IMG/VR virus record: IMGVR_UViG_3300010354_000292
Coordinates: 1 to 34,170 of that record
DNA: 34,170 nt
Strand: one strand, 5' to 3'
DNA from: a virus
Both the position numbers and the translations under genes were made by a program. Positions 8,873 through 33,600 of this stretch are shown piece by piece; position 1 is the stretch's first letter; each line of letters opens with the position of its first letter. The notes below the pieces were generated by a model. The model made no database searches. It was given only the letters and a program-made list of their open reading frames with translations, and was not told where the DNA came from.

Positions 8873-11800
8873 ATGGCAGGCCCATTAGAACCAAGAGTAG
8901 AACTTAGAAGTAAATGGGGTAGATTCAAATCCTCAAAAAAAGCGTTAAATGCACCACTTGTTTATTGTGTTGGTGGAATAGCAGTTGGTACTAAAGTGAT
9001 GTGTAAAGGTAAAGAAGAATGCCGTGCACTTCCTGGTGAATATATGTGGCCAGAAGAAGAAAATGGAAAGCCAGGAAATAAATGGAGTGAGATTGGTGAC
9101 AATAAGGGTTATTCCATGTTAACAGATTTTCATGTTTATACACCCATGTTTACATCAGGTACAAGTGGCGCAACTGGTGATCATTGGGAAGGTTATAACG
9201 CTAAAACATTTGCTAGAGAATCTTGGAATGAATTACAAGGTATATTGACTAAAAATAATATAAAACCATCTTCAAAAATACTTGTAGGTTTTTCTGGTGG
9301 TGTTGGTGCTGTAACAACCTATATTCCTATTTGGGGTGGTAGTTATAAATATTGGAATATTGTTTTATTAGCAGGAGCTTACGCTAAAACAAGTACACTT
9401 GCAAAAAGTGTACAAGCTGCAAAAACACAAAATCCAAATACATACTACTTTTCAGGTGGTCTAAAAGCAGGTGCTGATGGTTTTGAAAATCCACAATTTG
9501 ATGAAACTGTGACATTTTACGGTAAAGATTTTATCAAAACTTCAGCAGGTCACATGGGATTAATTACGGTTACTGCTAATTGGATTAAAAATAATGTGAA
9601 AGTTAATTCTACTGGTGAAGCAGCAACACCAAGTGGTGCGGCAACAACAGAAGGTACAGGTGGAACACCAAATCCAAAAACAGAAACACCAAAAACAGAA
9701 ACAGGTGGAACAGAATCACCAAAAGCAGAAACAGGTCAAAAATCTAAACTCCCAACTATATGTGAGTTACTCGCCCCACATTTACCTGCAACAGTAATTG
9801 AAGAATTACCATCTCTTATTAAGAAATTTAATGTAACTACAATGAATCAAATGATTCATTTTTGTGGACAATGCGCTCATGAAACGGGAAATTGGAAAAG
9901 TACGGTAGAATTAGGAGCAAATGCTGGAGCTAGATATGAAGGGAATACGAAGTTAGGAAACACTCAACCAGGAGATGGTGTAAAATTCAAAGGCCGTGGT
10001 TATATTCAACTAACTGGGCGTTGGAATTATGATCATTTTTCAAAGTGGTTAAAAAAATCAGGTAATGGAACAGAAGATTTAACACAATTTCCAGATTTAG
10101 TTGCAACTAAATACGCAGTATTATCTGCATTCTTTTTTATGGAAGATAAAGGACTATGGACAGCAGCACAAGACGCTGGATATAGTGATGCAGAAGTAAC
10201 ACGCATAACTAAGGTTGTGAATGGTGGCTCTAATGGCTTAGCAGAAAGAAAAAAATATACTGAAAAATTTAGAAAAATACTCGAAGGAAATAAATTTGTT
10301 TTATGCGGTGAAGTGGTTGAGGGAGTTATAGCGTCTTCGGTTACTGAATCAAATGGTTCTAATGCACAAGTAGCATCTGCAGCCGATGATTGTAATGATT
10401 TACAAAAAGAAGATGCAAAATTAAAATCTAACGAATCACCAGAAGGTGCTAAAGAAGAAGTAGTAGCAAAAGATCCTTTACCACCACCTAAAGATGAAAC
10501 ACCTGTTAGTTTAGATGGAAAATATAACCATAGATTTTATATTTTACCAACTAAAGAAAATAAACCACTCACATTGGCAGAGATGGTTGATAAAAAACAA
10601 AAATATTATAAAAGATATTGGGCATGGCGAACAGATGAAAATCCAGGATATGGAAGTGCTGCAAACGAAAATAAGTTGGTATCGGATGATGGAAAAAATT
10701 TAATAAGTGCATTAGTTCCATACTGGCCACCACATAGTGGATCCTTTGATGATATTAAAGAACCAACTGTACAAGGTAAATGGTTGAATTTAATAAAGGG
10801 ACAAAAAGACATTGAATCTTTTTTAGATGTTCCAATTTTGTTGAATGCTTATGATGTTGGTGTTTTTAATGATAACATAGGTTATGTTTTTGAAGCAGGT
10901 AATGAATTACATATGACTTTATTGGAAAAAGTTTTTCTTACAAACAAAGGTTCTCAGATTGGAATAGGTAATGCTGTAAATACAACAATATCAGATAAAA
11001 AAAATCAAGATTCAAGTTGGAGAGAATGGCCAAAGTGGTCTGGTATATGGGTTGAACATTGTTTGAAAAAATCCGGCTATACTTTACACGGTGATATAAG
11101 TGTAAACATCAATACTTATCATGAAAAACTTTTAAGTGGGAATAAATTAATAAATTATCCCGGTAATAAAGAATGGAAGTGGAAAGATTTGAAAGCAGCG
11201 GGTATGCAAGACCTTGTTTTTAAACCAAGTAAAATATGGTATGATCCAGCAAACTTAAATTCAGATGAATTATTAAAAGAGAGTGGTGATATTGCAATAT
11301 TCATTGTTGATTATCATATAAAGAAAGATGGTACATTAACTGAAAGAGGGCAAAAATTATTAGATAAAATAATATCGTTGAATTGGAAATTAGGAGTTAT
11401 TTCTGCCGTAAAAAGTCACACGGCACAATCTAATCAATTATATGCAGAAGTTTTAGTGTATCTTGATAAAACAGGTAAGATTGTTACATTTGGTGGTAAT
11501 ACAACACCAAGGGGAGCAGATTCTATTCCAGGTGGTGGTCCATATCACATTGCTGTAAAAGAAACAAACTTCAAAGATTTTGCAATATTAGCAGGTGATA
11601 ATTGGATAAATGGTGCAGTATTTATTTCTAATGTTAAATCTGGAGGAGATGGACACAGAGTTGGTGGATTGGATTCTAAGATATATACAACAAGTATATT
11701 CAAAGATTATTATACAAGAATTGATACTGAAAAAGGTAAATTAACAGGTAGAATGTATAATTTTCTTTTACCGTATATTGAGCAAAAACCAGCTGCACCT

Positions 11801-12505
11801 GCACCTGCAAAAATAGAACCATCAGAATCAAATGAAGGACAACATACAAAACTACCAGTTTCTCGTGGAAATGACGGTGGTAAAGATGGAAATGGTGGAA
11901 CAATTCTTACAGAAAGACCTGAAGCACTTGCATCAGGTTTGATAGGACTTATACCAGGTGAATCAAATCAATATCTGAGAGCATCTGCGTTACCTGATTT
12001 TAATGCAATGAAAGCTGCAGCTAAAGCAGCGGGAATTAGTATTTCAAGCAATGCGGATCCAACAAGAACAGTTGACGATCAGGTGAAGATTTGGAAAAAA
12101 AACAGAGGTAAAAAGGGTGGACCACCTATATACTGGCCTCACGAATGGTTAACATCGTCGAATAAAAAGTACGGTCCAATTATGCAATTTAATCGTGATA
12201 GTTTAACTTCGGGTGGTGAACCGGGACAGGTTGCACCACCACTTGGGTTTCACACGAGTACTGGAACAACGTACAGAGAAGGATCTTATCATCAGAAAGG
12301 TAGAGCAATTGACGTTGCAGGAGGTTTGACTGGCGATACAGCAAAAAAACTTGGATTGGCGGGTAACTATGTAAAATATCAAGAAAAATATCAAGGTCCT
12401 GCACAAAAATGGATTCGTGAAAATGGTCAAAAATATAACTGGTATTCATATTGGAATGAAATATGGCATTTTAATTATAAATTCAGCGGGAATGTAAAGC
12501 CATAG
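8873..12505 (+). CDS. Four-domain surface/cell-wall hydrolase (esterase-like, GH19, CHAP-like, M15)
   Basis: 1210 residues from ATG 8873. Residues ~70-245 resemble an alpha/beta hydrolase: nucleophile elbow ILVGFSGG (Ser141), an Asp candidate at 202 and His227 in SAGHMG. After a Pro/Thr linker (about 248-290), residues ~295-480 are a GH19 lysozyme/chitinase domain with CAHETGNW (Glu337), second acid candidate Glu346 and FKGRGYIQLTGRWNY. Residues ~555-970 include WSGIWVEHCLKKSGY, GDIAIF and KIVTFGGNT, the layout of CHAP/NlpC-like amidases but with Ser where the Cys nucleophile is expected. Residues ~1020-1210 are a VanY-type M15 peptidase: SYHQKGRAIDVA (His1140, Asp1147) and NEIWHFNY (Glu1196, His1199). 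It likely digests surface polymer and peptidoglycan during entry. The N- and C-terminal calls come from motifs; substrates are unknown. Confidence 0.85.
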   Translation: MAGPLEPRVELRSKWGRFKSSKKALNAPLVYCVGGIAVGTKVMCKGKEECRALPGEYMWPEEENGKPGNKWSEIGDNKGYSMLTDFHVYTPMFTSGTSGATGDHWEGYNAKTFARESWNELQGILTKNNIKPSSKILVGFSGGVGAVTTYIPIWGGSYKYWNIVLLAGAYAKTSTLAKSVQAAKTQNPNTYYFSGGLKAGADGFENPQFDETVTFYGKDFIKTSAGHMGLITVTANWIKNNVKVNSTGEAATPSGAATTEGTGGTPNPKTETPKTETGGTESPKAETGQKSKLPTICELLAPHLPATVIEELPSLIKKFNVTTMNQMIHFCGQCAHETGNWKSTVELGANAGARYEGNTKLGNTQPGDGVKFKGRGYIQLTGRWNYDHFSKWLKKSGNGTEDLTQFPDLVATKYAVLSAFFFMEDKGLWTAAQDAGYSDAEVTRITKVVNGGSNGLAERKKYTEKFRKILEGNKFVLCGEVVEGVIASSVTESNGSNAQVASAADDCNDLQKEDAKLKSNESPEGAKEEVVAKDPLPPPKDETPVSLDGKYNHRFYILPTKENKPLTLAEMVDKKQKYYKRYWAWRTDENPGYGSAANENKLVSDDGKNLISALVPYWPPHSGSFDDIKEPTVQGKWLNLIKGQKDIESFLDVPILLNAYDVGVFNDNIGYVFEAGNELHMTLLEKVFLTNKGSQIGIGNAVNTTISDKKNQDSSWREWPKWSGIWVEHCLKKSGYTLHGDISVNINTYHEKLLSGNKLINYPGNKEWKWKDLKAAGMQDLVFKPSKIWYDPANLNSDELLKESGDIAIFIVDYHIKKDGTLTERGQKLLDKIISLNWKLGVISAVKSHTAQSNQLYAEVLVYLDKTGKIVTFGGNTTPRGADSIPGGGPYHIAVKETNFKDFAILAGDNWINGAVFISNVKSGGDGHRVGGLDSKIYTTSIFKDYYTRIDTEKGKLTGRMYNFLLPYIEQKPAAPAPAKIEPSESNEGQHTKLPVSRGNDGGKDGNGGTILTERPEALASGLIGLIPGESNQYLRASALPDFNAMKAAAKAAGISISSNADPTRTVDDQVKIWKKNRGKKGGPPIYWPHEWLTSSNKKYGPIMQFNRDSLTSGGEPGQVAPPLGFHTSTGTTYREGSYHQKGRAIDVAGGLTGDTAKKLGLAGNYVKYQEKYQGPAQKWIRENGQKYNWYSYWNEIWHFNYKFSGNVKP

Positions 12506-13058: not shown

Positions 13059-13553
13059 GTGTCAATATTTAGAAGAAAAAGAGAATTTGTAAATCCTAAT
13101 AATCCCAATATAAATTTAGGAAAACCAATTGGAGTTTTAATTCCATTCAATGCAGAGTCAGGGATATTTAGACAAAGTTTTACAAATACTCAACAAGTTT
13201 TATCTAACTTGAAAAATCTTTTGTTGACTTCAAAGGGTGAACGGTATATGTTGCCAACGTTTGGTACTGATATTCGTACTATATTGTTTGATAACATTTC
13301 AAGCGAAGACGAATTTACAGGTAGATTAAATTCTGAAATAGAAAGTGCAATTGCAGAATGGATGCCGTTCTTAACAATAGTTCAATTGGAAACAATAATA
13401 CCAACAGTTGACCCACGATTAGATGATCCAGGTCATGCTGTTTCTATAAAATTAGTTGTAAAAATTAGTGGTACAAACATTTATCTACCTATACAGATAT
13501 TTATATCAGATACAGGAAACTTACAAATAAAAGAGGCAATCTATAATGGCTGA
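13059..13553 (+). CDS. 25: Baseplate wedge protein, gp25-like
   Basis: 164 residues from a GTG start at 13059 with AAAGGGAG upstream; an ATG at 13055 is in another frame. The diagnostic gp25/GPW block is clear: LKNLLLTSKGERYMLPTFG followed by TDIRTILFDN, then the acidic helix ESAIAEWMPFL and a beta-rich C-terminus. T4 gp25 (132 residues) is part of the inner baseplate core bundle with gp6 and gp53 and nucleates sheath polymerisation. The ~30-residue N-terminal extension (FRRKREFVNPNNPNINLG) is longer than in T4. It overlaps gp6 by 8 nt, the classic gene pairing. Confidence 0.93.
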   Translation: MSIFRRKREFVNPNNPNINLGKPIGVLIPFNAESGIFRQSFTNTQQVLSNLKNLLLTSKGERYMLPTFGTDIRTILFDNISSEDEFTGRLNSEIESAIAEWMPFLTIVQLETIIPTVDPRLDDPGHAVSIKLVVKISGTNIYLPIQIFISDTGNLQIKEAIYNG

Positions 13554-15447
13554 TTTAGTTAAAAAAGACATTCGTTATCTTTCAAGAGATTTCTCTTCTT
13601 TGAAACAAAACCTTATTGATTTTACGAAAAATTATTTTCCAAATACATATCAAGATTTTAATGAAGCATCTCCAGGGATGATGTTTTTAGAAATGGCTGC
13701 GTATGTTGGTGATGTTTTATCTTATTACACAGATGTTACTCTTCAAGAAACAATGCTTTTACATTCAACTGAGCGTGTAAATATATTAAATACTGCTCAA
13801 TCTCTTGGATATATGCCAAAAAATAGAATTGCTGCTAATGTAAAACTTGATGTTTTTCAAATAGTTCCTGCTAAAACTATAACTTCCGATAGTGGAAGTC
13901 AAGTTGTACCAGATTATTCATACGCATTTGCAATTGAACCTGGTATGATAGTTGGTGCAACAACTAATTCTGATGTTGAGTTTAGAACAGTTGATTTTGT
14001 TGATTTTAAATTTAGTAGTAATATTGATCCAACTGAAGTTACTCCGTTTGAAGTTGATACAAACGGGGAAGTTTTATTTTGGTTGTTAAAAAAATCTGTA
14101 AGAGCTGTTTCTGGTAAAGTAGAATATTATGATTATGAATTTAAAGACCCAAAACCATACGATAGAGTTGTTCTAAATAATGCAGACCTTATAGAAATTT
14201 TATATGGTATTGATGAAGATAATAATACTTGGTATAATGTACCGTACCTTGCGGCTGATACTATATTTAATCCAGTTATAAATATTCCAAGAAACGATGT
14301 AGAGTTATCAGCGTATAGAGACGAAACACCTTATCTTCTTAAATTAAAGAAAGTTTCAAGAAGATTTACAGTAAGAACAGTTGATCAAGGAATTTATGAA
14401 ATACAGTTTGGTGCTGGTGTTGCTGACTTAGATGATGAGGAATTGATACCTAATCCAGATTTAATTGGAAGTTCATTAACTGGTATTGAGAGTTCTGTTT
14501 CTTTAGATATAGATCCATCTAATTTCTTATATACCAAAACATACGGACTTGCTCCAAATAACACTACAATTAGAATTTATTATACGACTGGTAAGGGTAT
14601 GCAAGATAATGTTGCTAGTGATACAATTACACGGATTTTAAAAAGAAGCATTTTACTTGATGAAACTGGTCTTGATAGTATTTTATATAATCAGATAGTT
14701 GCAAGTTTAGCAGTTACAAATCCAAAGCCAGCCGTAGGTGGTAAAGCAGGTGATGAAATAAATGAAATACGAAATAATGCTTTAGCTAATTTTGCTGCAC
14801 AAAACAGAGCAGTAACAAAAGAAGATTATATTATTAGGGCGTACACACTACCTTCCAAATATGGTTCTATTGCAAAAGCGTATATTACAAAAGATACACA
14901 GTTAACAGTTGAATCTATATATAATACAGAAAGAATTCAAAATAATTTAGCCTTAAATTTTTATGTATTAGGATATGACGCTGATAATAAATTAACTGTT
15001 ATTAATGATGCAACTAAGGAAAATTTAAAAACATATTTGAATTATCATAGAATATTAACCGACGCTATTAACATTCGTGATGCATATATAATTAACATCG
15101 GTATTGAATTCGATATAATAACTTTTCCAGACCAAAATAGTAATCAAGTTATATTAAGATGTATAAACAGATTAAAACAATATTTTGACGTAAATAAATG
15201 GCAAATAAATCAACCTATTATAGTTAGCAATATATTAACCGAATTGGATAGAATAGAGGGCGTGCAAACTGTTGTTGATGTTAGGTTAACAAATAAATAC
15301 GATCAAACATTAGGTTATTCTCCACATGCTTATAATTTACAAGAAGCAACAAGAAATGGAATTGTTTTTCCTTCTTTAGATCCTTCTATTTTTGAAGTAA
15401 AATATCCAGATAATGATATTATCGGTAGAGTGAGGGCATTCGGATGA
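13546..15447 (+). CDS. 6: Baseplate wedge protein gp6 (baseplate J-like)
   Basis: 633 residues (T4 gp6 is 660); ATG 13546 with AGAGG upstream. The N-terminus is typical of gp6: IRYLSRDFSSLKQNLIDF, NEASPGMMFLEMAAYVGDVLSYYTD and SLGYMPKNRIAA. The baseplate-J core follows with NEIRNNALANFAAQNRAVTKEDY (about 405-430), the segment that also marks Mu/P2 gpJ family proteins. gp6 forms the dimeric iris of the baseplate wedge and joins neighbouring wedges through gp25 and gp53. The end overlaps the next start by 4 nt (ATGA), so the genes are translationally coupled. Confidence 0.93.
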   Translation: MADLVKKDIRYLSRDFSSLKQNLIDFTKNYFPNTYQDFNEASPGMMFLEMAAYVGDVLSYYTDVTLQETMLLHSTERVNILNTAQSLGYMPKNRIAANVKLDVFQIVPAKTITSDSGSQVVPDYSYAFAIEPGMIVGATTNSDVEFRTVDFVDFKFSSNIDPTEVTPFEVDTNGEVLFWLLKKSVRAVSGKVEYYDYEFKDPKPYDRVVLNNADLIEILYGIDEDNNTWYNVPYLAADTIFNPVINIPRNDVELSAYRDETPYLLKLKKVSRRFTVRTVDQGIYEIQFGAGVADLDDEELIPNPDLIGSSLTGIESSVSLDIDPSNFLYTKTYGLAPNNTTIRIYYTTGKGMQDNVASDTITRILKRSILLDETGLDSILYNQIVASLAVTNPKPAVGGKAGDEINEIRNNALANFAAQNRAVTKEDYIIRAYTLPSKYGSIAKAYITKDTQLTVESIYNTERIQNNLALNFYVLGYDADNKLTVINDATKENLKTYLNYHRILTDAINIRDAYIINIGIEFDIITFPDQNSNQVILRCINRLKQYFDVNKWQINQPIIVSNILTELDRIEGVQTVVDVRLTNKYDQTLGYSPHAYNLQEATRNGIVFPSLDPSIFEVKYPDNDIIGRVRAFG

Positions 15448-16618: not shown

Positions 16619-18229
16619 ATGTTAGAACGTGATGCATTGACTGGCGGAATAATAAGTTATACTGATGATAGTGAAATTCAAAATCAAGGAGCTCTTGATG
16701 TTGCTGTATTGGATGGAAGATATGTGCGTAGAGATTTCTCTCGTATAATAGACACTAATTTTAAATCACTAAAAGACGCAGTTTCAGCAGAAGATAATGT
16801 GAGTAAAAAAATAAAGAGTATTCAAAATAGAGCTTTATTACCAGGTGAGTTAGAAAAAATAGCTGGTAGAAACTTACCAGATATTGCATTAAGTGATACG
16901 GAAAAAGCAGAATTAGCTAAAAAAGAATTTCTCAGTAATATATCTAATTTGATTAGTATGGACAGTAATACAACTACCGGTATGCAATATCAAATGAATC
17001 AAATGCAAGAACAATTAGCAACTAAGGATTCTATTATAAGTCAACAAATACAAACAATTTCAAAGTTTGATGATGTTTTATCATCAGTTTCAGCAGAAAG
17101 AGCACTTGCTGTTGCAAAAGCAGAAAGATTACGTGAAGCAAATGTTTCACTACAAAGACAAGCAGATGAAAAATTAGCAAGGATACAAAACGAAGTAGTT
17201 GCTCAGAGAAAACAAGCAGAACAATCAGCAAAAGACTTAAAAACTGCATTGGTAGATAATATAAGTGCAACAAATACAAAACAAGATGTTGATATTGAAC
17301 AACTTAAATTACAAAATTTACAATTACAGCAAAATTTACAAGACACAAATACTGCAATATCTGACACAAAACAATCTGTTATAGATTTACAAAATTCAGT
17401 AATTGATGCTGCAAATAATTCTGGTACAAATGATTCTGGTGCAAATGATTCTGGTGCAAATGATTCTAATCCACCGCCAGACGGACCAACTACTGATCCT
17501 AATGTATTAACAGCTCTTGGATTACAACCTACTGACGTTTCGTATGTTGAAACTCCAAACGGTAGAGTTATGAATGTGTTCAGAAGTGTAAAGGTTTCAT
17601 CACAAGCGGTAAAAAATGGGGCACTTATGGTAAAGTTCGGTGTTGTTAATGGAACATTTGATTGTTCTGGTGTTGGGTTAACAACTTTAGCAGGTGCACC
17701 GTCTAAGTGTTCTGAATTTAATTGTTCAAATAATTTGTTAACCTCATTACAAGGTTCACCACAAATTGTTTACGATGGAACAGTTGATTGTTCTAAAAAT
17801 AAATTAAAAGATTTATTAGGTGGTCCACAAACTGGTGCTTTTACTAAATTAGACGGTGATGTTGCTAATGCACAGCGTAATACGTTTTATAGATATGATT
17901 GTTCAGATAATTTATTGAACACTTTAAAGGGGTATCCACAAACTGCTTCCGATTTAGGTGGAACAACCGATGTTACGGTGATAATGGCGGATTTTAATTG
18001 TTCCAATAATCAGTTTCTTTTTGTAATCGATGGTGTAACCGTTACACCAGGAAAACAACCTATGAATAGATTTAATGCAAGTAATTGCCTTCTTACTGAT
18101 GAAACTTGGACTCGTTCTGACGTACGTTGGCAAACCTTAGAATTTAATGGTGCAAATCAACAAAATGGAAAAAAACTAAACGCTGATTTGGTTAAAAAGG
18201 CTACAAAAGCAGTAACCGTTATAGTATAA
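16619..18229 (+). CDS. Coiled-coil virion protein with C-terminal LRR cassette
   Basis: 536 residues from ATG 16619. The N-terminal ~85 residues include GALDVAVLDGRYVRRDFSR, a pattern seen where phage structural proteins dock to a baseplate or tail. Residues ~120-265 are a long Gln/Ala/Lys-rich coiled coil (alanine/glutamine heptads), then an Asn-Asp-Ser-Gly repeat linker, then leucine-rich repeats from ~340 (FDCSGVGLTTL, FNCSNNLLTSL, VDCSKNKLKDL, YDCSDNLLNTL, FNCSNNQF). The tail (FNGANQQNGKKLNADLV ... VIV) is the same kind that ends the other two LRR proteins. A trimeric or dimeric fibre-like stalk carrying an LRR head is the simplest reading; it lies in the wedge operon, so attachment to the baseplate is likely. 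Confidence 0.65.
   Translation: MLERDALTGGIISYTDDSEIQNQGALDVAVLDGRYVRRDFSRIIDTNFKSLKDAVSAEDNVSKKIKSIQNRALLPGELEKIAGRNLPDIALSDTEKAELAKKEFLSNISNLISMDSNTTTGMQYQMNQMQEQLATKDSIISQQIQTISKFDDVLSSVSAERALAVAKAERLREANVSLQRQADEKLARIQNEVVAQRKQAEQSAKDLKTALVDNISATNTKQDVDIEQLKLQNLQLQQNLQDTNTAISDTKQSVIDLQNSVIDAANNSGTNDSGANDSGANDSNPPPDGPTTDPNVLTALGLQPTDVSYVETPNGRVMNVFRSVKVSSQAVKNGALMVKFGVVNGTFDCSGVGLTTLAGAPSKCSEFNCSNNLLTSLQGSPQIVYDGTVDCSKNKLKDLLGGPQTGAFTKLDGDVANAQRNTFYRYDCSDNLLNTLKGYPQTASDLGGTTDVTVIMADFNCSNNQFLFVIDGVTVTPGKQPMNRFNASNCLLTDETWTRSDVRWQTLEFNGANQQNGKKLNADLVKKATKAVTVIV
17411..17467 (+). repeat. 15-bp tandem repeat in the coiled-coil/LRR gene
   Basis: Nearly four copies of a 15-nt unit start at 17411, 17426, 17441 and 17456, encoding the linker unit NDSGA/NNSGT/NDSGT-like between the coiled coil and the LRR head. 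In-frame period and near identity indicate replication slippage of a flexible spacer. Confidence 0.85.
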
Positions 18230-18243
18230 CATAGGATATTTTA

Positions 18244-21200
18244 ATGTCAAATTTTAATTATACAAATATAGACTCAATACTTTTAGCAAAGAACCCCATT
18301 CGTGGTTCAAGAACACGTTTATCTTCGGTTAGAAGAAAATTAGTTGTTCCTGTATTGAATGATCCAGAAGAACAATATTTTGGTAGAGAATCTTCACTTG
18401 AATTGCACGTATTTTTACCAAACACTACTTATGTTGATAATTCTTCTTTGTATGATTTACCATTTAAAATAGAATCAAGAACCGAAATAGTTACTTCGGG
18501 TGACGTAACAGAAACAGTTGATAGAAAATATGCTTTAATTGATGTACACGATCATATTCAAAATTTATTACAATTACCGCCAGATAATTATAAAATTGTT
18601 TATAATTTTTTTAGAAATCTTATTGGTGGTTCTACTGATGAAAACGGAAGATTATTTATAGCAGATATTTCACAAGACAGACGTGAATTAAAATTAGCAC
18701 TTAAATATCCAGAAAATGTAGCAGCAAAAACTTCATTAACACAGTTTGTGTTAAATTATTTATCATCAACAACTTACCTACCGCCAATTATAATAAATTT
18801 TGGTGAGAATTTAATTGTGGATGTTATTAATGTTACATCCGATGGTGATGATACATATTTCTATGTTAAACTATATGACACACTTCCACTTGAAATAGAT
18901 TTATATTATGAATGTTGGTTAGGAAGTCAAATTCTAAAACCTTGGATAGATAATGTAGTTGTTAGAAATCAACAACCAATGGATATGATTCCTTATATTA
19001 AAGGACCAAATTTTGAAGTTGACTATGATTATTGGGTAAATACTGAAACTGCATATAAGTCTTGGAACGATTTATTATCAACGAATGTACAAACTTCTCA
19101 AGAAATTTTAAATAGATACGTTAATGATACTGGTTCTAGTGTAAAATTAAATGTTGATTATAGAGATTTTTCCAACTTCATATTTTACTCTTCGGCTGAA
19201 GATAGGTCTGCTAATTTCTTTTATAAACTTGGATTAATTGAAACGTACAATACACAACTTTTATTACTGAATACATATACTGGTTCTGTTAGTTCAAATA
19301 TTATCAATGTTAAAAATTTAAGAAATAAAATAGAACAGGGCTTTGATGAGTTTGAAAAATGGTTGTATTATGAAACAACTGCTAGTAATTTTTACACTAG
19401 TCAGTCTGCTGCAATAATTACGCCGTATCCAAAATATGAAGTTGATCCAACTTCTAGTGATTATCATATTTTAACAAAAGAAGGTAAATATAAATTATAT
19501 TCTGTTTTGTCTGATACGGGTATAGATTGGTATAACGATTTAGTTGATAATGGACTTGAATACGATTTAAAGAATTACAATTCATTACAAAAAGCAATAC
19601 CAGAATACATACTAGACGATGGTCAGAGTGAGCAATTCAAAACATTTGTAAACATGATTGGTCAGCACTTTGACATTTTATATTTATACACAGACCACAT
19701 ACTAAAGAAAAACACAAGAAAAGAAAATCCAAAAGATGGACTTTCTCAGGATTTAGTTTATGAAACAACAAAAAATTTAGGTTGGACACTTTCAAATGGA
19801 ACTCAAACAAAAGACCTTTGGGAATATGCTTTAGGGTTGAGTGGAAGTGGTGAACCTATTTGGACAGGTAAAACAACAATAAATAAATACCTTTCAAAAT
19901 CAGAAGAAAATAGAACAAAGGAAGTTTGGAGAAGAATATTAAATACTCTTCCGTATGTATACAAAAGTAAAGGTACTTCACGGAGTATAAAGGCATTACT
20001 TTCTGCATATGGAATTCCTTCAACTATTCTTTCGATTCGTGAATATGGTGGTCCTGACAATGCAGACTTCGGTAAAGTTCCTAGAGCAGAGTGGGATAAA
20101 CAAACATATTATCTTAACTTTTTAGGAAGTAAGCAGCAACCAAAAACAAATCAATATGTTCGAGTACCTTGGGAAAAAGTAAATAATGCAAATAGTCAAT
20201 GGCAATATCCAGATGCTTTGACTTTCCGTTGGAAAATGAACGATGCAAAATACTATCCATACTTTGATAATAAAGTTCAAACTATTTTACAAAAACAATC
20301 TGGTAGTAGATTAGATTGGTATGTAACAATAGCAAACGATGGAACTGATTATGATAGGGGAAGTTTAACTTTCCACATGAAAGGTGAAGACGTTACTACA
20401 TCTGGTGGTTGGTCAAAAATATCAGCAGGGTTCAACCATAGTACTGCTGTTAAAACTGATGGAACTTTATGGGGTTGGGGATTAAATACCAACGGTCAAC
20501 TTGGTGATAATTCTACTACAACTAAATCAAGTCCAGTTCAAATTGGAACTCTTTCAGATTGGTCTTATGTATCAGCAGGCGATAACTATACATTAGCAGT
20601 TAAAACTGACGGTACACTTTGGGGTTGGGGACAGAACACTTATGGTGAACTTGGTGACAATTCTACTTCAACTAAATCAAGTCCAGTTCAAATTGGTACT
20701 TTATCTAATTGGTCAAAGGTAGAAGGTGGAAATAACCATGCATTAGCTCTTAAAACTGACGGTACACTTTGGAGTTGGGGTTTTAGTGGTAATGGTGAAT
20801 TGGGTCAAGACAGTACTGTATCACGCTCTTCTCCAGTTCAAATTGGAACTTTATCAACTTGGTCATCTATATCAGCAGGTTCAAACCATTCGTTTGCTAT
20901 AAAAAATGATAATACTTTATGGGGTTGGGGTAGAGATACTTTTGGTGAATTAGGAGATAATACAACTGTTAATAAATCTTCTCCAGTACAAATTGGTTCA
21001 AGTTATTCAGTAGTTTCTGCTGGTGGATATTATACATTAGCAGTTAAAACAGACGGAACATTATGGGCTTGGGGTTATAATAATAAATATCAACTCGGTG
21101 ATGGTACTACTAATACATATTCATCGCCAATTCAAATAGGTACAGGATTCGCAACGGTATCCGCTGGACCAGATTCTGGTGGGTTGAATTACGCTACATC

Positions 21201-23346
21201 ATTAGCGGTTAAATCCAATGGAACTCTATGGGGTTGGGGTAACAATAGTGATGGACAAGTTGGTACAGATACAGGAGTTGGTTTTCAAGTATCTTCACCT
21301 ATTCAAATTGGTAGTGATGCGGATTGGAATACTGTAAGTGATGGATTAACACATACCGTTGCCTTAAAAACAAATGGTAGTTTGTGGGGTTGGGGAAATA
21401 ACGCAAATGGACAGGTTGGTGATAATACAACAGTAACACGTTCGTCGCCAGTTCAAATTGGAACTTTAAGTGCAACAACAATTAGTTCATATAAATCTGC
21501 TTCAATTACAGACCAATATTTATATGATGATGTTCCACTAAATATTATGCTCCAAAGAAGATTTTCAACTGATTTAACTTCTTCAAACCAAATTTATGAT
21601 TTTATTCTCAAAACAGGAAAATACGGTAAGATTGTAATTGAACAATCTGCAAGTATTGTTATAAGTGGAAGTGTGAGTGGTAGTTATAATCAAGCATGGG
21701 CTTCTGATGGACAATTATACATAGGTTCTGGTTCTAATCCACAAACTGATAATATACTTTCTGGCTCTATTTTTGAATTAAGATATTGGTCGACTATATT
21801 AAATACTTCTTCTTTTGATAATCATGTGTTAGCACCAAGGACATATAATTCTAATAATCCAACTGGTTCTTTCTATGATTTACAAGGACAATGGCAATTC
21901 TGGAAAAAGTTTGATTCTGCAACTACTACCAGTTTTATAAGTAGTCATCCCGATCAAACCAAGAAAACGTTTTATTCTTCTTCTAAAACAGCTTATCTAA
22001 ATGAATTCAATAGTTCATCTTTTGAATCTTTAGCAGAAACGTATAATATGGAAGTTGTTACAGTAGCAAACAATACGCCATTTACTGAAAAAATAAGAAT
22101 AGATTCCGCTTCATTACAAGATTCTTTACAGGTTGATAAGTCGGTAACTATAACTCAGTTTGATAAATATTCAATCGATTCAAGTAAATTGATGGTTGCA
22201 TTTTCTCCACAACACATAATAAACGAAGATATTTATGAATCGTTAGGATACACGGTATTAGATGATTATTTCGGTGGATATGATTCTGTTAATTTAGAAG
22301 AATATCCAGATTTAAAATTCTTAGCAAAAGAATACTGGAAAAAATATTCAAATAAAAATGATTTTACAGCATATATTGATTTAATAGCAAAATTTGATTT
22401 TAGTATATTCGATCAAATACGTCAAGTTTTACCACTACGTGTAAATGAAATTTTAGGTTTAGTAGTTGAGCCAAATGTTTTAGAAAGATCTAAAGTAAAA
22501 ACAACACGAGATTTTGCGGTAGAAAAATCAGATAGTGTAGAAACAAATGATATTTCAACTTTAGGTTCTCCGTCATTAAAATTGAATAACGTTAAATCAA
22601 CTATTACTATTGGGTTTGATGAAAATTATGATAGTGAAATTTTAGAATACGGTGGTGAATTTGAAATTGGAAATACGTTTGAAACGGAATTACAGGATAT
22701 TGATGGTGAAAAGGACTTAAATTATATAACTACTTCCAAATTAAGTAGAACTAGTGGAAGTGTATTTTTACCTCAAAAATCTTTTATAAGTGAGCAAAAC
22801 AAACTAAAAACTTTTGTAACTGGTTCTAAAATAAAATCATTTGTTGCTACTCTAAAGGGGGTTGATGCTAATATTAATCTTAAACCGGCAGTTTCAACAA
22901 CAGGTAATGATGGTAAAACTACATTCTGGTACACACCAGATATAGTTGGTACAATTACAACAATACCGATTCCATCTGATTATGTTAATAACACAACAAC
23001 AATTACACCAAATGAAACAGAGCAAACTACTGGTACGTTTGATCAAATAAATCCCCCAATTAAAATCGGTGGATATTACCAAACACCTGAGCCAGTATAT
23101 TCTACTATGGAAGAGTATGCAACTAATCAACCTAGTTCTTATATTTTTGTTGATAGTGATTATACTAATCCAGACAATTTAAGAACTGCACAACAAAATT
23201 ATATGTTTGCTGGTTGTAAACTTGAAGGACAAAACGGTGAAGGAATTAATGATGTAGCATATCCGGCAGTAACACCAGATGGTGGAGCAATTGTGGAAGT
23301 TACTACTACTGATACACTTGAGGATGTTTCTTTTATTATAGAATAA
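18244..23346 (+). CDS. Giant baseplate/tail structural protein with RCC1 propeller nested in a LamG-like domain
   Basis: 1700 residues; ATG 18244 with AGGAT upstream. The N-terminal ~650 residues are a wedge-type structural region: YILDDGQSEQFKTFVNMIGQ (about 452) and the conserved ILNTLPYVYKSKGTSRSIKA block (about 570), known to me from large LamG-containing proteins of marine T4-like phages. A concanavalin A/LamG-like sandwich begins at ~658 (DALTFRWKMND), is interrupted at ~720-1077 by seven RCC1 repeats, and resumes (YLYDDVPLNIMLQRR, LYIGSGSN, GSIFELRYWST) to ~1200. The C-terminal part has FDFSIFDQIRQVLPLR and GLVVEPNVLERSKV, again typical of the family. By position after gp6 it could correspond to a gp7-like wedge protein or a tail-fibre base; this is inference. 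Confidence 0.75.
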   Translation: MSNFNYTNIDSILLAKNPIRGSRTRLSSVRRKLVVPVLNDPEEQYFGRESSLELHVFLPNTTYVDNSSLYDLPFKIESRTEIVTSGDVTETVDRKYALIDVHDHIQNLLQLPPDNYKIVYNFFRNLIGGSTDENGRLFIADISQDRRELKLALKYPENVAAKTSLTQFVLNYLSSTTYLPPIIINFGENLIVDVINVTSDGDDTYFYVKLYDTLPLEIDLYYECWLGSQILKPWIDNVVVRNQQPMDMIPYIKGPNFEVDYDYWVNTETAYKSWNDLLSTNVQTSQEILNRYVNDTGSSVKLNVDYRDFSNFIFYSSAEDRSANFFYKLGLIETYNTQLLLLNTYTGSVSSNIINVKNLRNKIEQGFDEFEKWLYYETTASNFYTSQSAAIITPYPKYEVDPTSSDYHILTKEGKYKLYSVLSDTGIDWYNDLVDNGLEYDLKNYNSLQKAIPEYILDDGQSEQFKTFVNMIGQHFDILYLYTDHILKKNTRKENPKDGLSQDLVYETTKNLGWTLSNGTQTKDLWEYALGLSGSGEPIWTGKTTINKYLSKSEENRTKEVWRRILNTLPYVYKSKGTSRSIKALLSAYGIPSTILSIREYGGPDNADFGKVPRAEWDKQTYYLNFLGSKQQPKTNQYVRVPWEKVNNANSQWQYPDALTFRWKMNDAKYYPYFDNKVQTILQKQSGSRLDWYVTIANDGTDYDRGSLTFHMKGEDVTTSGGWSKISAGFNHSTAVKTDGTLWGWGLNTNGQLGDNSTTTKSSPVQIGTLSDWSYVSAGDNYTLAVKTDGTLWGWGQNTYGELGDNSTSTKSSPVQIGTLSNWSKVEGGNNHALALKTDGTLWSWGFSGNGELGQDSTVSRSSPVQIGTLSTWSSISAGSNHSFAIKNDNTLWGWGRDTFGELGDNTTVNKSSPVQIGSSYSVVSAGGYYTLAVKTDGTLWAWGYNNKYQLGDGTTNTYSSPIQIGTGFATVSAGPDSGGLNYATSLAVKSNGTLWGWGNNSDGQVGTDTGVGFQVSSPIQIGSDADWNTVSDGLTHTVALKTNGSLWGWGNNANGQVGDNTTVTRSSPVQIGTLSATTISSYKSASITDQYLYDDVPLNIMLQRRFSTDLTSSNQIYDFILKTGKYGKIVIEQSASIVISGSVSGSYNQAWASDGQLYIGSGSNPQTDNILSGSIFELRYWSTILNTSSFDNHVLAPRTYNSNNPTGSFYDLQGQWQFWKKFDSATTTSFISSHPDQTKKTFYSSSKTAYLNEFNSSSFESLAETYNMEVVTVANNTPFTEKIRIDSASLQDSLQVDKSVTITQFDKYSIDSSKLMVAFSPQHIINEDIYESLGYTVLDDYFGGYDSVNLEEYPDLKFLAKEYWKKYSNKNDFTAYIDLIAKFDFSIFDQIRQVLPLRVNEILGLVVEPNVLERSKVKTTRDFAVEKSDSVETNDISTLGSPSLKLNNVKSTITIGFDENYDSEILEYGGEFEIGNTFETELQDIDGEKDLNYITTSKLSRTSGSVFLPQKSFISEQNKLKTFVTGSKIKSFVATLKGVDANINLKPAVSTTGNDGKTTFWYTPDIVGTITTIPIPSDYVNNTTTITPNETEQTTGTFDQINPPIKIGGYYQTPEPVYSTMEEYATNQPSSYIFVDSDYTNPDNLRTAQQNYMFAGCKLEGQNGEGINDVAYPAVTPDGGAIVEVTTTDTLEDVSFIIE
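20407..21471 (+). repeat. Seven RCC1-type repeats (complete beta-propeller)
   Basis: Seven consecutive units of ~50 residues (residues 722-1076) each show the RCC1 pattern: W-x-x-V/I-S-A-G, then A-V-K-T-D-G-T-L-W-G-W-G, then G-Q/E-L-G-D, then SSPVQIG. Starts are near 20407, 20557, 20707, 20857, 21001, 21148 and 21322; unit 6 has an insertion of about 10 residues. Seven is the number of blades in the RCC1 fold, so a closed propeller is expected. Units 1 and 2 share a 28-nt identical run (20519-20546 and 20669-20696), pointing to recent duplication. Confidence 0.95.
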
Positions 23347-31884: not shown

Positions 31885-33600
31885 GTGGCATTTCAATTTG
31901 GAAATAATATAAGTTTTGCTTGGAAACAATTAAAAGCAGGTGATTATACTGTAAGACATTTTCAAGCTAATAAAACATGGAAGTTTAACACACTTTCTAC
32001 TGATGTTGATTATTATGAAAATCACGGTATAAATGTTTATCGTGCATTATATCCAGAAAATAGTAAATACTTCGGTAATGTATTGAATTTATCATCTGAT
32101 ATGTATCGTAACTCATATACCTCACAAAGTATTGATCCTAAACAATTATGGTATTCATTAGATCACAATTATTACACAGTTTATTCTGATTATAGAATGT
32201 ATGACTATTCATTGGATGAAAAGTATAATGGTTATCTATGGGAAACAAGCTCTATTTTTATATTACCGATGAAAAATTTTGGTGAGGGTATAAAGAAAGG
32301 TTCTTTCTCTATAAATAATTATAATGCAAATCCTTCTTACAGTTATACATTAGTAGACGATGAATATGGAAATTTAATTGACAAATCATTTGATACTACA
32401 AAATTTGTTAATGAATCGTATTGTTTGTTAAATGTGGGATTCAATGAAAAATATAGAGAATACAAATACAAAAATAATAAATCAATTTATGTATTGGATT
32501 CATCGCCTTATAACAATATTATTAATATAAAAAATACTAAAAAAATCTCATATCACCCTGGCATTCCAACAACAGATACGGCAGAATCAACTGGTGTTTC
32601 TGCTGCAATTCATGGTACATATTTAACAGTTGATAATTATGAAAAGTTTAATTTTAATCGATCAAACAATTTTGCATTTAGTTTTTGGTTAAATGTTCCT
32701 GCAAGTCAATCAATAGAAACATATAATCATAATTACTTATTTAATAAGAATCGAATAAAAATGTTACGTGTAGGTGATGATGTTATTGAAACTGGTTCTT
32801 ATTCCAACAGATTTCCATTTGATATTTATCTGACAAATAGAACAGCAGCAAACCCATACTCCATTGTTTTCAGACAAAGTTCTGATGTTGAGAGTATGCA
32901 AGTAACTTCTAGTATGTTAGCAACTGGCAGTTGGAATCATGTTATTTGTCAAAAAACTGGAAGTAACTATGAGATTTATATAAACGGTACATTAAATGCT
33001 TCTACTAATAAAATAATGACTAAAACCATTAATAATGACCATAAATTTTATATAGCAGGTGACGGAACTAATGATAAAGTTTTGTCTGGTTCATTGGACG
33101 AAATTAGAATTTACAATAAAGGATTGACTTCGGATGACGTTACCTACCTATACAACAATAGTTCAGTAAATGGTTATGCATATCAAACAGCAAGAGTCGG
33201 TAATGTATTCTATAACCAAGGTGTAGTTGTTATTAGTGATCCACGTCCTAAATATAAAAATGCACTTCTCGGAGCAAGTGGTTCATATGATTATAGTGAT
33301 TTAACTAACGGGTTTGATGGTCAATACAAAAGTACAACTACTTTTTTTGAACATGAAATTATATGTAAAATTCGTAAACATGAATATAATTTTACACAAA
33401 ACCCATCCATATTTTCAGATATAAATTTTTCACCTGCATTGGTTAATACAAATGTGACTCATAAAGATTTTAATCCATACATAACAACGATTGGATTATA
33501 TAATGAAGATAGGGATTTAATTGCTATTGCAAAATTGGCTAATCCTCTGATAAAACGTGATGATGTTGATATGAATATTATTGTACGGTTTGACATGTAA
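31885..33600 (+). CDS. Virion protein, paralog array member 5 with inserted LamG lectin-like domain
   Basis: 571 residues from a GTG start at 31885, 1 nt after the previous stop. The N-terminal ~230 residues are a diverged module start (YSDYRMYDYSLDEKYNGYLW, SYTLVDDEYGN). Residues ~243-427 form a typical LamG/concanavalin A-like sandwich: FAFSFWLNVP, GSWNHVICQKTG, YEIYINGTLNAS, FYIAGDG and SGSLDEIRIYNKGLTSDDV. The module then resumes with VGNVFYNQGVVVI and finishes with the shared block YITTIGLYNEDRDLIAIAKLANPL. The lectin-like domain is therefore inserted inside the module rather than appended. Binding of a host surface glycan is a reasonable inference. The stop overlaps the resolvase ATG by 1 nt. 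Confidence 0.75.
   Translation: MAFQFGNNISFAWKQLKAGDYTVRHFQANKTWKFNTLSTDVDYYENHGINVYRALYPENSKYFGNVLNLSSDMYRNSYTSQSIDPKQLWYSLDHNYYTVYSDYRMYDYSLDEKYNGYLWETSSIFILPMKNFGEGIKKGSFSINNYNANPSYSYTLVDDEYGNLIDKSFDTTKFVNESYCLLNVGFNEKYREYKYKNNKSIYVLDSSPYNNIINIKNTKKISYHPGIPTTDTAESTGVSAAIHGTYLTVDNYEKFNFNRSNNFAFSFWLNVPASQSIETYNHNYLFNKNRIKMLRVGDDVIETGSYSNRFPFDIYLTNRTAANPYSIVFRQSSDVESMQVTSSMLATGSWNHVICQKTGSNYEIYINGTLNASTNKIMTKTINNDHKFYIAGDGTNDKVLSGSLDEIRIYNKGLTSDDVTYLYNNSSVNGYAYQTARVGNVFYNQGVVVISDPRPKYKNALLGASGSYDYSDLTNGFDGQYKSTTTFFEHEIICKIRKHEYNFTQNPSIFSDINFSPALVNTNVTHKDFNPYITTIGLYNEDRDLIAIAKLANPLIKRDDVDMNIIVRFDM

Follow-up and report, generated by a model that had tools for sequence, protein, structure and literature searches.

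The window, by which we mean the whole 34 kb stretch analysed here (34,170 nucleotides of the IMG/VR virus record IMGVR_UViG_3300010354_000292), contains an open reading frame (ORF) at positions 18244-23346 that encodes a protein of 1700 aa. Genes for gp25-like and gp6-like baseplate wedge proteins, recognised by PHROG matches, lie just upstream (Table 1). Both these neighbours and synteny place the ORF within a tail/baseplate gene cluster, a position expected of a receptor-binding protein. The complete 190 kb genome of Microcystis phage Mel-JY01 holds a homologue of this carrier protein (WWT39511) with the gene order of the window, and Flavobacterium phage immuto has one (YP_010114574) directly after its baseplate wedge genes. 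Both homologues are annotated only as hypothetical, and both lack the propeller described below.

We considered whether the carrier is a homologue of gp7 and rejected this, as hhalign comparisons with T4 gp7 and P2 gpI gave E-values of 0.29 and 0.11 with a probability below 1 %. Since there is no profile match to either protein, we use the term baseplate-cluster protein rather than gp7. A weak trace of Tail_P2_I was found in 11 of 28 carrier relatives, with E-values of 0.067 or worse. Residues 1-650 of the carrier gave a poor structure model (pLDDT 54.7) and a fold search with this model returned no significant match.

Table 1. Positions in the window of the carrier ORF, its domains and two context genes.
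Feature	Position	Strand	Basis
gp25-like baseplate wedge protein (context)	13059..13553	+	phrog_261 E 6.9e-10, phrog_43 E 6.5e-8
gp6-like baseplate wedge protein (context)	13546..15447	+	phrog_219 E 5.5e-22
Propeller-hosting baseplate-cluster protein, 1700 aa	18244..23346	+	ORF; relatives in 72 distinct viral sequences; syntenic homologues
Host beta-sandwich domain, first half (possibly LamG/ConA-like), ends in GSLTFHM, residues ~621-712	20104..20379	+	family alignment; model strands to residue 713
Insert left linker KGEDVTTSGG	20380..20409	+	common to carriers with divergent backbones
RCC1 unit 1 (50 aa), residues 723-772	20410..20559	+	Pfam
RCC1 unit 2 (50 aa), residues 773-822	20560..20709	+	Pfam
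RCC1 unit 3 (50 aa), residues 823-872	20710..20859	+	Pfam
RCC1 unit 4 (48 aa), residues 873-920	20860..21003	+	Pfam
RCC1 unit 5 (48 aa), residues 921-968	21004..21147	+	Pfam
RCC1 unit 6 (59 aa; longer loop PDSGGLNYA), residues 969-1027	21148..21324	+	Pfam
RCC1 unit 7 (50 aa), residues 1028-1077	21325..21474	+	Pfam
Insert right linker TTISS	21475..21489	+	alignment
Host beta-sandwich domain, second half, begins at YKSASITD, residues 1083 to ~1230	21490..21933	+	alignment, model

Other proteins encoded in the window have features of their own. A 1210-aa tail-cluster protein (8873-12505) combines two wall-degrading domains, one chitinase/endolysin-like (phrog_181, E 7e-38; Glyco_hydro_19 weak) and the other a VanY carboxypeptidase domain at the C terminus (E 1.9e-6). 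The 571-aa protein at 31885-33600 has a clear Laminin_G_3 domain (E 4.1e-16) and is a possible second binding protein in the cluster. The 536-aa protein at 16619-18229 is coiled-coil-like in its N half and has short LRR-like repeats (FNCSNNLLTSLQG...) in its C half, with only a marginal Pfam match (LRRNT, E 0.037). Within the carrier, residues 1501-1600 (approximately 22744-23043) form a second variable region close to the C terminus, where DNA identity to the relative L009 is 57.5 % compared to 70-83 % in the adjoining blocks. Carrier relatives also vary in C-terminal length.

A preliminary description of this DNA had read seven consecutive RCC1-type repeats of about 50 residues at 20407-21471, and Pfam bears this out with boundaries at 20410-21474 (residues 723-1077). 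In the profile search that it had proposed as a check, PF00415 (RCC1) matches the 1700-aa ORF in 7 stretches (E 4.9e-65, 216 bits), all seven places scoring above the curated cut-off of 21.7 bits, and PF13540 likewise matches in 7 stretches (E 1.5e-54). The RCC1-like domain PF25390 reaches an E-value of 1.3e-75 and the best PHROG for this region is phrog_4219 (E 4.2e-49). Among solved structures, the seven-bladed UVR8 is nearest in sequence (E 1e-42), followed by HERC2, HERC1 and RCC1.

We modelled residues 600-1270 with AlphaFold2 from an alignment of 28 sequences. The model is of moderate confidence (mean pLDDT 63.6, pTM 0.48, blade cores about 65-84). Its best PDB match is again UVR8, with a TM-score of 0.74-0.77 normalised to the target over about 370 residues, and BLIP-II is also among the fold matches. 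Residues 723-1077 thus fit a predicted closed seven-blade ring at moderate confidence. The closed ring of the preliminary description stands as far as the seven units and the likeness to UVR8 are concerned, while closure itself is a prediction at the pLDDT given above.

What had been missed is that the propeller is an insertion absent from most relatives. Its roughly 370 aa cleanly take the place of a beta-turn of 5-7 aa between adjacent strands of a beta-sandwich. In nearly all relatives a short turn of 5-7 residues (GDGTN, for example) connects the strand GSLTFYL to YKSASI; the insert precisely substitutes this turn (e.g. GDGTN, HDGASA) between the strands GSLTFHM and YKSASITD. The AlphaFold2 model likewise places it between two adjacent antiparallel strands, 705-713 and 1083-1090.

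We scanned viral contigs with the window protein, with a family alignment and with the propeller, yielding 72 distinct relatives. The fetched set has 68 distinct proteins that can span the site, of which about 65 have it empty and 3 have 370-371 residues there; with the window as the fourth full carrier, about 65 of 69 are empty and 4 of 69 are full. One further protein in the underlying count is a spurious short match. An early alignment that mixed in unrelated RCC1 proteins was poor and was discarded. The propeller is carried by six proteins in total, at the same site in all, two of them partial because the contigs (L011 and L071) end inside the propeller. Each full carrier keeps the reading frame and all seven units.

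The identity of the domain that hosts the insert was addressed by profile comparison. A single member matches Laminin_G_3 of Pfam (E 0.12), hhalign against the true LamG domain of the window ORF starting at 31885 gave P 2e-4 with a probability of 46 %, and searches of Pfam or PDB profiles for a LamG identity gave nothing better than E 0.1. On this weak profile support the host domain is possibly a sandwich of the LamG/ConA type.

The insert and the backbone of the carrier have separate histories. The closest backbone relative of the window, L010, is 92.4 % identical in DNA over codons 1-600 and its site is empty. The DNA identity between the window and L009 is 76.1 % in the backbone and 96.3 % in the insert, and between L011 and L054 it is 68.1 % and 93.9 % respectively. 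The discordance also runs in the opposite direction, with 95.2 % in the backbone and 79.5 % in the insert for L009 and L071, and 88.6 % and 74.3 % for the window and L008. The synonymous divergence agrees with these identities, independent of protein selection: for the window and L009, dS is 0.86 (backbone) and 0.10 (insert), and for the window and L008 it is 0.43 and 1.00.

AU tests on trees that were picked after the identities had been seen reject the backbone topology on the insert (p 6.6e-4 for four taxa, 2.9e-57 for six) and the insert topology on the N-terminal backbone (p 0.0027 for four taxa, 2.7e-66 and 1.1e-46 for six). The backbone tree, built from 71 rows, requires at least 3 changes, gain or loss, for the carriers, and in it L011 groups with the empty L023 with full bootstrap support. 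The position of one such change is visible in L011, which matches its empty sister L020 at every base as far as GGAAGTTTA and then continues with the carrier sequence ACTTTCCACATGAAAGG. This sharp crossover lies about 15 bases ahead of the insert junction. The tract of high identity between the window and L009 runs from residue ~720 to 1199 and so includes part of the host domain's second half; an extension past the insert is the expectation under homologous recombination.

Taken together, the discordant identities and the rejection of the swapped trees show that the propeller is a domain cassette exchanged laterally between virus lineages. The ORF therefore presents a modular exchanged domain, a candidate binding domain, on a conserved carrier. 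The propeller had been described as part of a T4-type structural protein: the gp25-like and gp6-like neighbours uphold the baseplate setting, while the propeller turns out to be an exchangeable insert and not a fixed part of that protein.

The insert is under purifying selection. Its dN/dS is 0.18-0.32 for full-length pairs and 0.45-0.55 in two partial pairs, compared to 0.09-0.25 for backbone regions of near relatives. With dN/dS below 1, strong positive or diversifying selection on the insert was not seen. The GC content of the insert (38 % versus 30 %) raised the possibility of a foreign base composition, which we rejected: GC3 is 0.16 versus 0.14-0.17. Because GC3 is the same as in the rest of the genome, the GC excess is attributed to amino-acid content.

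RCC1 domains are found in other phages; dozens of phage records are so annotated, and the presence of RCC1 in phages is not new. In the T7-like Pseudomonas phages PollyC and Ppr_SeaP2, RCC1 lies inside a protein at the tail-fibre gene position, with the gene for the large internal virion protein on one side and the lysis genes on the other. In S-SRM01, BUCT-ZZ01 and LIBA6276 it lies beside tail-fibre genes. Four relatives of the window phage encode RCC1 arrays as proteins of their own, 725 to 2851 aa long and containing 13 to 51 repeat motifs. These arrays share a common N-terminal start (MIKN/MIKD...), and the protein encoded directly before each one contains an Mtd_N, collagen or YadA-head domain, Mtd being the major tropism determinant of a Bordetella phage; one contig with an array has an S74 chaperone protein at the same place. 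The longest array (L227:7056-15611; IMGVR_UViG_3300010354_000096, 47.6-56.1 kb) is encoded by one 2851-aa ORF, which has about 51 RCC1 motifs, perhaps seven consecutive propellers, and directly follows an Mtd_N protein. The shorter ones, of 725-1449 aa, are at L228:7090-9267, L229:6037-10386 and L230:6871-9129. We considered whether the cassette had been copied recently from the phages' own arrays and rejected this at 44-51 % protein identity; the DNA identity of about 65-75 % over longer matching stretches means that any copying was not recent.

RCC1 proteins have been detected by mass spectrometry in phage particles, those of phrog_4219 in virions of the E. coli phage W70 (PMC11370258) and another in virions of GAP32 (PMC5259590). 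The RCC1 families phrog_4219, phrog_7220 and phrog_16766 carry the PHROGs category 'DNA, RNA and nucleotide metabolism'; the gene contexts described here suggest that a tail or adhesion category would fit better. Among cellular proteins, the closest relatives found were RCC1 proteins that Flavobacterium secretes and that bear a T9SS sorting domain (TIGR04183), up to 51 % identical to the insert, one of which (from GT3R68) is little beyond a single seven-unit propeller. As these relatives are secreted, the lineage of the insert looks extracellular. They also hint at a Bacteroidota host for the window phage.

We consider it probable that the locus holds a self-contained RCC1 cassette that sits in a loop of the baseplate-cluster protein, projects from it, binds the host surface and is recombined in and out. 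In a seven-bladed propeller the two chain ends would adjoin, so that it could replace a hairpin turn with the carrier fold undisturbed. The propeller would project outward from the baseplate and bind something on the host cell surface, which would add to or alter the adhesion specificity of the phage. Gain, loss and replacement of the cassette would proceed by homologous recombination in the conserved flanking DNA. We infer that the carrier and its propeller are present in the virion, and the propeller would be displayed outward on the baseplate with a host-surface receptor as its probable target. A receptor-binding or host-binding head had been proposed earlier, and surface binding is the best-supported reading of it, inferred from RCC1 in tail-fibre positions, arrays after Mtd_N, collagen or YadA-head proteins and the virion data for W70 (phrog_4219) and GAP32. 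The secreted Flavobacterium relatives also point to a propeller acting outside the cell. The cassette is not expected to be the sole receptor-binding part because the phage lineage that lacks it is evidently viable.

One alternative is that the propeller decorates the virion and adheres weakly to glycans, exopolysaccharide or particles, keeping the phage near cells with its host range unaffected. Ig-like domains are known to decorate phage virions in a comparable way, the cassette can be dispensed with (L010 is empty), the carrier is not a fibre tip and the insert is under ordinary purifying selection. Elsewhere, however, RCC1 occupies the tail-fibre gene position and lies next to Mtd_N-type proteins, which points to specificity-determining parts, and we regard mere decoration as rather unlikely. 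It is distinctly improbable that the propeller instead binds a host protein or DNA in the cell or periplasm after injection. BLIP-II, a bacterial propeller that binds beta-lactamase, is among the fold matches of the model and would suggest an inhibitor of that kind, and the authors of the phAPEC6 study proposed that RCC1 proteins may order DNA (PMC7247149). Yet the ring is fused within a large baseplate-cluster protein by the gp25 and gp6 genes and its closest cellular relatives found are secreted.

A further explanation for the patchy presence of the insert is that it is a neutral passenger in a permissive loop, shuffled by general phage mosaicism. The loop does tolerate an insert and these phages are mosaic elsewhere in the genome too, but the conserved frame and seven units of all full carriers, the dN/dS of the full-length pairs and exchange or retention at the same site at least 3 times on the tree make this improbable. 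An artefact of metagenome assembly, in the insert or in its patchwork, is scarcely credible. Repetitive sequence may mislead assemblers, and the contigs of L011 and L071 end within the insert; against this, the window, L008, L009 and L054 cross both junctions in frame on contigs that are 34-60 kb long and come from different samples, and the overlap at the L011 crossover is only about a dozen bases, presumably below the usual assembler k-mers.

The preferred reading, an exchanged cassette that binds the host surface, has partial precedents. The phrog_4219-type virion proteins (W70_237-239, GAP_001 of GAP32 and those of PBECO4 and phAPEC6) belong to jumbo and rV5-like phages and are separate genes, often arrays, whereas the window has a single propeller that is exchanged in a carrier loop. 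In PollyC and Ppr_SeaP2, RCC1 makes up the C-terminal part of a fibre, whereas the insert lies in an internal loop of the baseplate-cluster protein; the two are only 26-28 % identical. The Flavobacterium T9SS proteins are cellular, secreted and free of fusion to phage proteins, unlike the insert. The predicted propeller has its seven-bladed fold in common with the plant photoreceptor UVR8, the RanGEF RCC1 and the enzyme inhibitor BLIP-II, but none of these functions is expected for it; to our knowledge Ran is absent from bacteria, and we do not claim a RanGEF function. Propellers at the baseplate periphery are found in phi11 Gp45 (five blades), which is a precedent for a propeller in host recognition, and in phiKZ gp131C (seven blades), for which such a role has been suggested (PMC4901313). 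Gp45 is a homotrimeric receptor-binding protein platform, and the recognised likeness of both to the insert is one of fold type.

Exchange of phage receptor-binding domains is already known, as are RCC1 proteins in phage genomes and virions. In the open-access literature we found no report of a mobile RCC1 cassette occupying a fixed loop of a baseplate-cluster protein, nor of RCC1 as a phage receptor-binding domain.

We regard it as close to an even chance that a loop of the conserved baseplate protein is a general plug-in site, into which an entire RCC1 propeller fits and acts as a mobile module for specificity. If so, baseplate proteins, and not fibre tips alone, would bear exchangeable receptor-binding rings, and these rings would come from a pool that also supplies the separate multi-propeller adhesins of the same phages. 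Phage RCC1 proteins are often annotated with 'chromosome condensation' or 'DNA metabolism', and the locus provides a natural experiment against such naming: near-identical baseplate proteins occur with and without the propeller, and the same propeller occurs on different baseplate proteins. The binding target of phage RCC1 propellers thereby becomes directly testable. These results suggest that a familiar fold of eukaryotic type serves as a mobile adhesion module of phages.
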